NCBI RefSeq assembly: GCF_030691135.1 | Contig: NZ_JAUYFA010000092.1 | Span: forward strand, 1-64,000 | From: Phreatobacter sp. | Lineage (GTDB): Bacteria > Pseudomonadota > Alphaproteobacteria > Rhizobiales > Phreatobacteraceae | Length of the DNA stretch: 64,000 nt | Direction: 5' to 3' | Shown here: positions 39,166 through 42,555 of the stretch, piece after piece | Position numbering within the stretch: the stretch's first letter is position 1 | Layout: each line of letters opens with the position of its first letter | The notes under the pieces: model-generated | Seen by the model: the letters and a program-made list of their open reading frames with translations, nothing else | Databases searched by the model: none | Told to the model about the DNA's origin: nothing | Position numbers and translations under genes: made by a program

Positions 39166-40284
39166 TCAGCGGCGCCAGACGAGGGTGGCCGAGGCGGCAT
39201 AGTTGAACACGGCACCCATCACGGCCCCGGCGAGGCCGGAGAGCCACCAGTCGACATCGCCGGCATAGAGCCAGCTGGCGACGCCGACATTGCCGAAGGC
39301 GCCGATGCTGCACACGAGATAGAAGAGCAGCAGGCCGGTCAGGAAGCGGGCGCCCTTCAGCCGGGCATCGCGATAGGTGATCTCGTTGTTGATGACGAAA
39401 TTCGACGTCATGGCGACGACCGTCGCCAGCGTCTGCGCCCATTCGAAGCGCATGCCGAAAGTCAGGCCCGCATAGAGCGCCGCCAGATGGACGATGAGGC
39501 CGCTGGTGCCGACCAAGGCGAAGAAGATGAAGCGCAGCGGGATGAACCCGCCGGACAGCTTGTTCAGGACGAAGCCGACATAATCCAGCGCCACCTTGGC
39601 GTCGAGCTTGCTCTCGCCATGGACGCGCTCACGGAAGACGAAGGGGACTTCGGCGAAGCTCGGCGCCCTGGGCACCGATGCCGCGATGTCGGCGAGGATC
39701 TTGAACCCGGTGGTCGACAGCCGCGGCGCCACCTCCTCGACGATGTCGCGGCGGATCATGAAGAAGCCGGACATCGGGTCGGTCAGCGGTGCCTTGAGGA
39801 TCATCGACGACAGACGGCGGCCGAGGTCGGAAATCCCCTGGCGGATGGGCGTCAGACCCTCGGTCTTCGAGCCGCCGGCGATGTTGCGGCTGGCGACGAC
39901 GAGGTCGCGCCCGGCCCGGATCTGCTCGAGCATGGCCGGCAGGATGGTCTCGTCGTGCTGCAGGTCGCCGTCCATGACGGCGACGACCGGCGCCGAGGAA
40001 GCGAGCATCCCCTCGATACAGGCGCCCGCAAGCCCCCGCCGACCCACCCGGCGGATGCAGCGCACGCGCGGGTCGCGCGTTGCGATCTCCTTGACCACGG
40101 CGGCTGTGCCGTCCGGGCTGTCGTCGTCGACGACGATCATTTCCCAGGCGATGCCGGCGAGCACATGATCCAGCCGGCGCGCCAGTTCCGGCACGTTGTC
40201 GCGTTCGTTGAAGCTGGGCACGACCACCGTCAGTTCGGGGGGGCCGGCGGTCTTGATGTCATGGGTCATCTGGCCGGGGGTCAT
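39166..40284 (-). CDS. GT2 polyprenyl-phosphate glycosyltransferase with GtrA domain
   Basis: A 372-residue protein fused from two domains. Residues 15-240 are a GT2 enzyme of dolichol-phosphate mannosyltransferase type: LTVVVPSFNERDNVPEL, IVVDDDSPDGT, VAVMDGDLQHDE and PMSGFFMIRRD. Residues 250-372 are a GtrA-like four-helix membrane domain (IFFALVGTSGLIVHLAAL, TSNFVINNEITYRD). It would load a sugar onto undecaprenyl phosphate. Alternative start ATG 40269. Operon with the GT39 gene. Confidence 0.9.
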   Translation of the reverse strand: MTPGQMTHDIKTAGPPELTVVVPSFNERDNVPELARRLDHVLAGIAWEMIVVDDDSPDGTAAVVKEIATRDPRVRCIRRVGRRGLAGACIEGMLASSAPVVAVMDGDLQHDETILPAMLEQIRAGRDLVVASRNIAGGSKTEGLTPIRQGISDLGRRLSSMILKAPLTDPMSGFFMIRRDIVEEVAPRLSTTGFKILADIAASVPRAPSFAEVPFVFRERVHGESKLDAKVALDYVGFVLNKLSGGFIPLRFIFFALVGTSGLIVHLAALYAGLTFGMRFEWAQTLATVVAMTSNFVINNEITYRDARLKGARFLTGLLLFYLVCSIGAFGNVGVASWLYAGDVDWWLSGLAGAVMGAVFNYAASATLVWRR

Positions 40285-40305
40285 AGACCCCGCCCGCCGA
40301 CGGGG

Positions 40306-40977
40306 TCAAGCAAGGGCCGGCCTTGTCGCGACGGCATGGACCGCATAGTCGCGATAGGGGCGCGCCAGACGCACGGCAAACCCGCGCGCTCCGGCGGCCT
40401 CATCGAGCGCTTCGGCGAATCCGTCCCGCGGCGTGACGTGGAACTGCGACAGCCAGGCCCTGAGGCCGGCACGGAACAGGCCCGGCAGCCGGCTCTGGCC
40501 GCCGAAGTCCACCACGTGGAGCGAGCCGCCCGGCAACACCGCGGCCATCGCGCGGTCGAGTGCCTCCCGCCAGGGCGGGATCATCGACAGCGTGTAGGAA
40601 CAGAAGGCACGGTCGAAACCGTCCCGCGCGAAGGTCGACAGCGGGTCGAAGCGCGCGGCGTCGGCCTCCGCGAGGCGGATGCGGTCGGCAAGTCCGGCGC
40701 GGTCGACGGCGCGACGGGCCTCGGCCAGCATCACCGGGCTCACGTCGAAGCCGTAGAACCGCGCCTGCGGATAGCGCCGGGCGGCGACGATGAGGTTGCG
40801 CCCGGTGCCGCAGCCGACTTCCAGCACGGTGCCGCCGGCGGGCGGCGCGAGCTCGGCGATCAGACCGTCACGGCCGAGCAGATAGAACTTGCGCGTCGCG
40901 TCGTAGATGCCGACCTGCCACCGGTAGATCGCGTCCATCTGCCGCGATGCGTGGACCGTGTCGGCGGGCGCGGTCAC
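40306..40977 (-). CDS. btaB: Betaine-lipid N-methyltransferase BtaB
   Basis: BtaB adds three methyl groups to diacylglycerylhomoserine, giving the phosphorus-free betaine lipid DGTS. The 223 residues show MDAIYRWQVGIYDATRKFYLLGRD, the SAM-binding TVLEVGCGTGRNLIVAARRYP and FYGFDVSPVMLAEAR, then DFGGQSRLPGLFRAGLRAWLSQFHVTPR. The start is a GTG at 40977 that overlaps the btaA stop (GTGA). Identity rests on the neighbour, which is specific for this pathway. Confidence 0.9.
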   Translation of the reverse strand: MTAPADTVHASRQMDAIYRWQVGIYDATRKFYLLGRDGLIAELAPPAGGTVLEVGCGTGRNLIVAARRYPQARFYGFDVSPVMLAEARRAVDRAGLADRIRLAEADAARFDPLSTFARDGFDRAFCSYTLSMIPPWREALDRAMAAVLPGGSLHVVDFGGQSRLPGLFRAGLRAWLSQFHVTPRDGFAEALDEAAGARGFAVRLARPYRDYAVHAVATRPALA

Positions 40978-42227
40978 GACGCCGCCAGCGTGTAGAGGTG
41001 GAAGCCGCCATAGATCGACGACCGGTCGCGGTCGGTCCAGGCGCGGCACCGCGGCGCGTCATAGGTGAAGCGGGCGAGGATGTCGGGCGCCACACGGCCT
41101 GGCAGCAGGCTCTCCTCCGCCGCCGTACGGAAGATGACACGGGCACCGGGCCGCGCCGTGCGCAGGATCGCGCGCCACAGCCGGTTCAGCACCTCGTCGG
41201 TCATCCAGTCCTGCGCGTCGAGCAGCACATAGGCGTCGCGCGAGGCGTCGGGTTGCCGCTCGAGATGGTCGATGAAATTCTCGTGGCAGACCTCGACGCG
41301 ATCGGCATGGGCCTTCACCGCATCGAAATGGCCGGCGACGAGGTAGGGCGGCACGGCCCCCGTCGCGCCCGGCTGGTAGCGGCGCCCGAAGGCCTGCCAG
41401 GCGAAGTAGTTGCTCTCCAGCGGAAAGCCACAGGCGAGGCGCTCGAGGCGCGTCACCAGAACCTCCTCCATGCCGCCGCCGGCCTTGGCTGAGGTCAGCA
41501 GCGCCTTGTACTGGGCCGGCGGAATGCCGAGCCCGTAGAGCGACGCGGGATTCTTCACCAGCCAGCGCACCAGGCCCGACGAGAACAGCGGCTTCAGCTC
41601 GCTGTCGAAGATGGCGCGCTGCTCGGCCAGCGAACGGGCCTCCAGCATGCGGCGCGGATCGCGGCCGTGCAGGCGGGCGACGGCGTGGCCGGTGCCGATC
41701 ATCCAGCCGAGCAGGCCCTTGCGATAGATGTTGTCGGAGAACTGCCGGATGCGGCGGCGGCCGACCCAGTCGCGGTGGTCCCAGTAGGCGCGCGTCACCG
41801 GATCCAGCCGGTCGCGCAGATGCCGGTCAAAGGCGGCGACATTGTCGCGGCTGTCGGCCTCGCCGAAGAAGCGGAAGAAGCTCGCATGGTCCGGCAGATG
41901 CTGGGCTGCCGTGAGCTTGAGCCGGTTCAGCGCCACGTGGTTCTCGTTGAGGTCGAGGGCGGTGATGCGGGCAGGCCCGGCAACGAGGTAGCTGAGGATG
42001 TTGCAGCCGCCCGAGGCGATCGCCACCACGTGATCGGCCGGGCCGAGCGCCAGCGCCTCCATGTCGATCGCCGGATCCTCCCAGATCTGCGGATAGACGA
42101 GGCCCGAGAACATCAGCGTGAAGAGCTGTTCCTGAAGCCCCGCTCGCGACAGCGGACTGTGGCGGGCGACTGCCCGTCCGATATTGCGATGGGTCGCCTT
42201 GCGGGCCTCGCCTGCCACCAGAGCCAT
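40974..42227 (-). CDS. btaA: SAM:diacylglycerol 3-amino-3-carboxypropyltransferase BtaA
   Basis: BtaA transfers the aminocarboxypropyl group of SAM to diacylglycerol, the first step of DGTS synthesis. The 417 residues match DUF3419/BtaA: LMFSGLVYPQIWEDPAIDMEALAL, VVAIASGGCNILSYLV, ITALDLNENHVALNRLKL, then LESNYFAWQAFGRRYQPG and YVLLDAQDWMTDEVLNRLW near the C-terminus. Four Pho-box half-sites upstream predict induction by phosphate starvation, as known for btaA in Sinorhizobium. btaB follows with a four-base overlap. Confidence 0.93.
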   Translation of the reverse strand: MALVAGEARKATHRNIGRAVARHSPLSRAGLQEQLFTLMFSGLVYPQIWEDPAIDMEALALGPADHVVAIASGGCNILSYLVAGPARITALDLNENHVALNRLKLTAAQHLPDHASFFRFFGEADSRDNVAAFDRHLRDRLDPVTRAYWDHRDWVGRRRIRQFSDNIYRKGLLGWMIGTGHAVARLHGRDPRRMLEARSLAEQRAIFDSELKPLFSSGLVRWLVKNPASLYGLGIPPAQYKALLTSAKAGGGMEEVLVTRLERLACGFPLESNYFAWQAFGRRYQPGATGAVPPYLVAGHFDAVKAHADRVEVCHENFIDHLERQPDASRDAYVLLDAQDWMTDEVLNRLWRAILRTARPGARVIFRTAAEESLLPGRVAPDILARFTYDAPRCRAWTDRDRSSIYGGFHLYTLAAS

Positions 42228-42277
42228 GCCGTCTCATCCCGATTCGAGGGTTCTGGAGACGGACGTATGAGGGGGGG

Positions 42278-42317
42278 ATGACGCGCAGGTGAAACCACCA
42301 TGACCCGACGATGACGG
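42278..42317 (-). promoter_or_regulatory. Four tandem PhoB half-sites (two Pho boxes) upstream of btaA
   Basis: On the minus strand the seven-base units CCGTCAT, GGGTCAT, GTTTCAC and GCGTCAT (plus-strand starts 42311, 42300, 42289, 42278) recur at exactly 11 bases. This is the spacing of PhoB half-sites (consensus CTGTCAT, four-base spacer). They end 51 bases before the btaA ATG, with a possible -10 CATACG eight bases further on. Confidence 0.7.
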
Positions 42318-42389
42318 GGACCTGTTTCCGCGCGCCGGAGTCTGCGCGCGGATGCCGACAATTGGACGGTTTTCCAGCGCGGCCGATTA

Positions 42390-42525
42390 AGGTCAACGGG
42401 TAGGGTAAAGATGCGGTCTTGATTGTGCTGCCCAACGGATGGGCAGATAGACGGATTCAACCACTCCGCGTCCACGGAGATGACCATCTGACGCCCCGGG
42501 CCGGCAACGACCCGGGGTTTTTTTT
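42390..42525 (+). ncRNA. Candidate small RNA with three hairpins and terminator
   Basis: Three successive perfect hairpins lie on the plus strand. CTGCCCA with TGGGCAG spans 42428-42446, CTCCG with CGGAG spans 42464-42479, and CCCCGGG with CCCGGGG spans 42494-42517, followed by eight T (42518-42525). No coding frame of useful length ends here and the next gene is on the other strand, so the terminator must close a noncoding or very short transcript. The 5' end is a guess; TTGGAC near 42363 with GATTAA 17 bases later is a weak promoter candidate. This fills the 328-base gap between btaA and the MobA-like gene. Confidence 0.6.
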
Positions 42526-42555
42526 GTCAAAGTCGCCGCGTGCCATTCAGGTTGG

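Follow-up and report, generated by a model that had tools for sequence, protein, structure and literature searches.

A predicted, doubled Pho promoter upstream of the betaine lipid genes btaAB in Phreatobacter

Upstream of btaA in the genome of a Phreatobacter species, four 7-base units follow one another at an exact 11-base pitch on the coding (minus) strand of the gene (42278-42317; positions without a contig prefix refer to the window, the whole stretch of 64,000 nucleotides that was analyzed). We propose, with a probability of about 0.86, that this array is a PhoB-activated promoter of btaAB, whose phosphorus-free betaine lipid would replace phospholipid in low phosphate. Judged by sequence, it is a new and doubled instance of an already known regulation, and a well-supported one. 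Passages of PMC3972451 describe PhoB as an activator of the genes for DGTS synthesis and place btaA and btaB of sinorhizobia under its control, and according to a passage in PMC8829014 the two genes are among the highly phosphate-stress-induced ones. The open-licence literature searched yielded no report on the control of btaA in Phreatobacter.

The array upstream of btaA and its match to Pho promoters

Counted towards the gene, all on the minus strand, the half-sites are CCGTCAT (half-site 1, 42311..42317), GGGTCAT (half-site 2, 42300..42306), GTTTCAC (half-site 3, 42289..42295) and GCGTCAT (half-site 4, 42278..42284), each assigned by its sequence, its matrix score and its conservation in the genus. 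Half-sites 1 and 2 would pair to hold a first PhoB dimer and half-sites 3 and 4 a second one. Read continuously, the minus strand gives CCGTCAT.cgtc GGGTCAT.ggtg GTTTCAC.ctgc GCGTCAT.cccc CCCTCAT.acgt, and the fifth in-phase unit, CCCTCAT.acg, contains the -10-like hexamer CATACG. This likely -10 element (42264..42269, minus strand) lies in the fifth 11-base register (42263-42273), with a T-A offset that is kept in most of the loci compared below. The ATG of btaA (42227-42225) lies 50 bases downstream of the end of the fourth unit. From the position of the -10, transcription may start near 42257 on the minus strand, and the same position together with the ATG gives an approximate untranslated leader of 42228..42262. 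If PhoB recruits the polymerase, no -35 element would be required at this promoter. The weak points of the array are half-site 3 (GTTTCAC) and half-site 2, which opens with GG where the trained matrix favours CT. We also considered a sixth in-phase unit, CCGTCTC (42262-42256), as a PhoB site and set it aside as probably fortuitous; it lies beyond the -10 and drifts in relatives. The original prediction of four in-phase units spaced 11 bases apart thus stood up to a re-reading of the minus strand, and so did its reading as two tandem Pho boxes, with the refinement that the array runs on for one unit more into the -10 register; two tandem boxes with an in-phase -10 is the likely architecture.

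The gene behind this promoter encodes a 417-residue homologue of the S-adenosylmethionine:diacylglycerol 3-amino-3-carboxypropyl transferase BtaA (40974..42227, minus strand). It matches PF11899 with an E value of 8.6e-110 (367.9 bits against a cut-off of 28.2), the DUF3419 family which we take to hold BtaA, and is 54% identical to a homologue in S. meliloti; no NCBIfam model matched it at E 0.001 and no solved homologue at E 0.01. A class I methyltransferase gene in the position of btaB (40306..41010, minus strand; PF13649, E 1.4e-18) overlaps the end of btaA, and an alternative GTG start is possible at 41049. Such a methyltransferase adjoins btaA in all nine btaA-bearing stretches compared, and among the Pfam and NCBIfam profiles it matched no BtaB-specific model. 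The two genes are followed by a GT2/GtrA glycosyltransferase and then a PMT-family glycosyltransferase. The first of these seems, by eye, to have its own sigma-70 promoter (TTGACC, 17 bases, CTATGA; 40281-40310, minus strand), the -10 of which overlaps the first ATG of the open reading frame, so that translation probably begins at a codon further downstream. This promoter is retained in genomes without btaAB, and we accordingly do not regard the glycosyltransferase as a required co-regulated part, since its own sigma-70-like promoter is there with and without btaAB, though read-through into it is possible.

For scoring, a half-site matrix was built from 48 half-sites of 24 of the 26 pstS and phnC promoters collected from 12 genomes of the genus; pstS, phnC and ugpB are genes which we take to be members of the Pho regulon. 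The btaA promoters were excluded from training because btaA must not judge itself. From 20 PstS-type matches and 25 PhnC matches over cut-off, 13 each were taken as inputs, namely the best match of each genome plus a second one for genome G006, a choice made by hand and within a single genus. Two rows were left out, one for pstS (L124, with a best dimer of 8 of 14) and one for phnC (L149, with 9 of 14). In the pstS rows units 1 and 2 were used, unit 3 being read as overlapping the -10, and genome G001 was entered at its own best dimer.

With this matrix the btaA array scores 24.1 bits as a four-unit site and is the best of the 64-kb window by about 15 bits; non-overlapping sites reach no more than 9.2 on its own strand and 7.6 on the opposite one. 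The score depends strictly on the pitch, falling to -2.2 or lower at 8, 9, 10 and 12-15 bp. When the upstream region (330 bases) was shuffled 2000 times with dinucleotides preserved, no shuffle reached 24.1, the best being 17.9. Two units by themselves score weakly (shuffle p = 0.015), which means that the strength of the array lies in its four-unit phase. A search of the whole genome (4,218,227 bases) for GTCAT repeated four times at 11-bp pitch, with up to three mismatches, gave three matches at two places, while the same pattern reversed gave none on either strand. The btaA array has the fewest mismatches (two), its reading shifted by one unit passes with three, and the second place, also with three mismatches, lies directly before ugpB and ugpA.

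Conservation within the genus and in other Alphaproteobacteria

Eight of the 12 genomes of the genus carry btaA, and in every one of these the array is found, at a distance of 88-91 bases upstream of the btaA start and with four-unit scores of 18.6-24.1; these genomes are close relatives, so that the conservation is in part shared ancestry. A lack of the sites in close relatives had been named as a result that would speak against the original prediction, and they are present in all eight genomes with btaA. The T-A step in the register after the array is likewise found in 8/8, and the units are largely kept while the spacers vary. BtaA identities are 94% and 82% for the Phreatobacter metagenome-assembled genomes L009 and L011 and 87% for the Rhizobiales one, L010. 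The four genomes without btaA have the same flanks, molybdopterin-type genes on one side and the two glycosyltransferases on the other, and in all four the array is absent from the same syntenic place (best four-unit score before the glycosyltransferase at most -8.0). The array therefore tracks btaA between unchanged neighbours, and btaAB and its predicted Pho promoter are present or absent as one unit.

For a wider comparison, 80 alphaproteobacterial btaA upstream regions were fetched and 79 retained, L078 being dropped with a single base upstream. Three of the 79 come from the genus (L009, L010 and L011, apparently the same assemblies as G009, G004 and G010) and 76 from outside it. Two-unit sites exceed the 95% control threshold in 61 of the 79 and the 99% threshold in 43, counts that do not represent independent events because many of the non-genus loci are near relatives of one another (e.g., Roseibium). 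The controls were random segments of the same loci and mostly coding; the comparison of pitches does not depend on them. Three-unit sites over the 99% control level occur in 47/79 at a pitch of 11 bp, as against 1-6 at pitches of 7-10 and 12-16. The remaining 18 of the 79, among them both loci labelled Devosia (L015 and L021), have no two-unit site over the 95% control level, which indicates that some lineages are without the site or that the matrix misses it. In the 50 loci that score 10 or more for two units, the T and the A are each found in 41, at 17 and 18 bases from where the last half-site starts, and neither base had been used for choosing or scoring the loci. Four or five in-phase units were found in six of these 50 (the three genus loci, Sphingomonas L056 and L062, and the Rhodobiaceae metagenome-assembled genome L044). 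By these sequence counts the doubled box is uncommon, yet not unique to the genus.

Single boxes of the same geometry precede btaA of S. meliloti (7.6) and R. leguminosarum (11.4), and Sinorhizobium sp. M103 also scores 7.6. The S. meliloti site, in a species with reported PhoB control, lies below the 95% threshold of 8.3, showing that the threshold can miss real sites. The btaA upstream region of S. meliloti reads TCGTCAT.caaa GTGTAGC.cgag TCACCTT.agaa, and it shares with the Phreatobacter locus the gene order, the 11-base pitch of half-sites and a -10 with T-A in the next register. The two differ in that S. meliloti has one box (two-unit score 7.6) where two stand in tandem here (four-unit score 24.1), and in their flanking genes. 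Within the genus, half-sites followed by a -10 in the next register were seen in 24/26 pstS and phnC promoters inspected, the -10-like registers of the source genome being AGGTCAT.agaa and CTGCCCT.agag. These promoters share the pitch and the next-register -10 with btaA, but have two half-sites where btaA has four. The ugpB gene of the source genome has four units like btaA, although its -10 is not clear.

PhoB and rival readings of the array

A single protein of the source genome exceeds the PhoB family cut-off (TIGR02154; 344 bits against 296.2), and its gene clusters with those for PhoU (231.8 against 130.25) and for a PhoR-like kinase that falls just under its cut-off (312.7 against 334.2). 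The pstS product scores 139.1 against a cut-off of 206.6. Beside the second four-unit place, UgpB reaches 374.6 bits (cut-off 411) and UgpA 372 (cut-off 335). The original prediction had proposed PhoB control of btaAB and had named these as lipid genes of phosphate starvation in Sinorhizobium. The latter point agrees with published work on both PhoB control (a passage in PMC3972451) and induction by phosphate stress (a passage in PMC8829014). The former gains support from the match to a pstS/phnC matrix, the conservation in the genus, the cluster of PhoB, PhoU and a PhoR-like kinase, and the Sinorhizobium precedent.

On the plus strand, divergent from btaA, lies a conserved non-coding element (42385-42530) which is probably a small RNA, to judge from its sequence. 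It has a promoter-like block, GGTCAACNGGTAGGGTAAAGA, and a hairpin, ACTCCGCGTCCACGGAG, at 42463-42479 that is identical in 11 aligned sequences, followed by what looks by eye like a terminator (stem 42494-42517, T run 42518-42525), the stem of which stays paired although its letters differ between genomes. A DNA match to the element was found in 11 of the 12 genomes of the genus, including the four without btaA (in two cases over 30 bases only), and genome G001 has a diverged version. Among genomes of the order, 4 of 150 have the block and 6 of 199 the hairpin, and every one of these belongs to the genus. No Rfam family matched the element at its gathering score; the match to NsiR1 (E 0.91), with 22.1 bits where the gathering score is 39, was set aside.

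Since direct repeats are common binding sites of OmpR-family regulators, another member of this family, such as CenR or ChvI, might control btaAB, in which case the genes would respond to envelope stress and not to phosphate. A passage in PMC9275681 describes TGA-N8-TGA as the site used by CenR of Rhodobacter sphaeroides. This motif measures 11 bases from start to start, although the source gives 10. On the plus strand the array does show TGA at 11-base steps in all four units, a shifted five-unit reading fits as well, and no second place in the window has four steps of this kind; moreover, the PhoB profile hits the genome 45 times, so that there are many paralogues. The six-base CenR core is, however, inherent in any Pho box of which both half-sites end in TCA (on the complementary strand), and so cannot separate the regulators. 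What decides for PhoB, and against CenR or ChvI, is that the fuller matrix which picked the array came from pstS and phnC promoters, that the sole other four-unit place in the genome precedes ugpB, and that PhoB control of btaAB has been published in Sinorhizobium (so stated in a passage of PMC3972451). It also counts against CenR that btaA, betaine lipid and DGTS go unmentioned in the main text of PMC9275681. We consider control by another such regulator unlikely.

It seems very improbable that the array mainly serves the divergent element (about 42385-42530, plus strand) and that btaA uses another promoter. The element is strongly conserved and lies some 70-210 bases beyond the array, but the half-sites and the in-phase -10 face btaA and not the element; a link between the two was rejected, as the four genomes without btaA retain the element and have no array there. 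Scarcely credible is a chance arrangement in GC-rich intergenic DNA: a two-unit site by itself, with a shuffle p of only 0.015, would leave some room for it, but the empty result of the 2000 four-unit shuffles, the single pitch, the conservation and the genome-wide rarity argue the contrary, and to go by them the array is not a product of chance.

PhoB thus remains the preferred regulator of btaAB, on the strength of the pstS/phnC match, the parallel at ugpB and the control published for Sinorhizobium. Under phosphate scarcity, PhoR would phosphorylate PhoB, and two adjacent PhoB dimers would occupy the four in-phase half-sites. The promoter-proximal dimer would take the place of the missing -35 and keep RNA polymerase on the in-phase -10, CATACG. 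Transcription of btaA and btaB, presumably dependent on phosphate, would then convert diacylglycerol into the betaine lipid DGTS, which would take over from phospholipid. The doubling of the box may make induction tighter or stronger.

Lipid supply genes and a reversed Pho box at pmtA

The diacylglycerol for this route is presumably supplied by a PlcP-like hydrolase, which a probe from L082 detected in all 12 genomes of the genus; we take the name PlcP from this probe and from similarity to a published enzyme, and among curated models the protein matched LpxH-type enzymes only, under their cut-offs. In the genus the PlcP-like gene (at 124002 of G000:C26 in the source genome) has forward two-unit Pho sites of at most 5.7. 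A passage of PMC4796936 describes putative Pho boxes in plcP clusters of marine bacteria, some of which, e.g., in Phaeobacter sp. MED193, have btaA and btaB downstream of plcP; here, unlike in those clusters, the plcP-like gene and btaAB sit on different contigs (the former on C26), and btaAB is preceded by a predicted Pho promoter of its own. Two further candidate sites were noticed in the same genome. Between the PlcP-like gene and its divergent neighbour, the start of which resembles by eye a UbiE-type methyltransferase, a two-unit Pho site (L211) faces the neighbour in 12/12 genomes, with scores of 8.4-14.4. A Pho box with an in-phase -10-like register, CTGTCGT.cgcg CTGTCAT.gctg GATGCCT.agtc (G000:C28:41347-41364, L111), stands before a metallophosphodiesterase gene which matches SpdA and CpdA best, in either case under cut-off, and which adjoins a UgpC-like transporter gene.

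A reversed Pho box of 21.8 bits covers the presumed start of pmtA (G000:C111:50465-50482; L110:1466-1483). It is among the three best single Pho boxes of the genome, with one mismatch to the Pho box consensus; the assignment of the gene to pmtA is drawn from model NF045881, which it matches at 173.5 bits where the cut-off is 250. The box is found in ten of the 12 genomes of the genus, with varying spacers, namely in all eight with btaA (15.5-21.8 bits) and in two of the four without (18.8 bits). The remaining two are degenerate at this position and carry, about 26 bases upstream over the -35 region, a weaker match in reverse orientation (12.7 bits). The pmtA box therefore does not strictly follow btaA. 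In the rest of the order, 26 pmtA upstream regions, which are the best-matching non-genus loci from 87 genomes with a match, gave five forward and five reverse sites over the 95% control level and one of each over the 99% level, all scattered; as this is not above background, Pho control of pmtA was rejected as a general rule outside the genus.

These observations suggest, tentatively, a two-way PhoB lipid switch in the genus, in which btaAB (DGTS) would be activated and pmtA (phosphatidylcholine synthesis) repressed; we regard it as possible, with the odds leaning somewhat against it. In E. coli, as a passage in PMC6194859 reports, the phoB promoter is repressed through a weak antisense-strand PhoB site around its -10, a precedent that makes repression of pmtA by PhoB plausible. 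Against such repression counts the description, in PMC3972451, of Agrobacterium pmtA as constitutively expressed. The titles and opening abstract lines of the literature searched contained no report of PhoB control of pmtA. If the switch is true, one choline-like lipid would be swapped for the other by transcription, beyond the breakdown of phospholipid. Phosphatidylcholine and DGTS are inversely related, according to a passage in PMC3972451, and the pmtA lead would make this relation testable at one promoter.

On evidence from across the genus, the doubled promoter of btaAB leads us to predict that Phreatobacter-type bacteria, too, replace phospholipids under the control of PhoB. The simple rule that emerges, half-sites in register with the -10, could predict Pho control of btaA in other Alphaproteobacteria.
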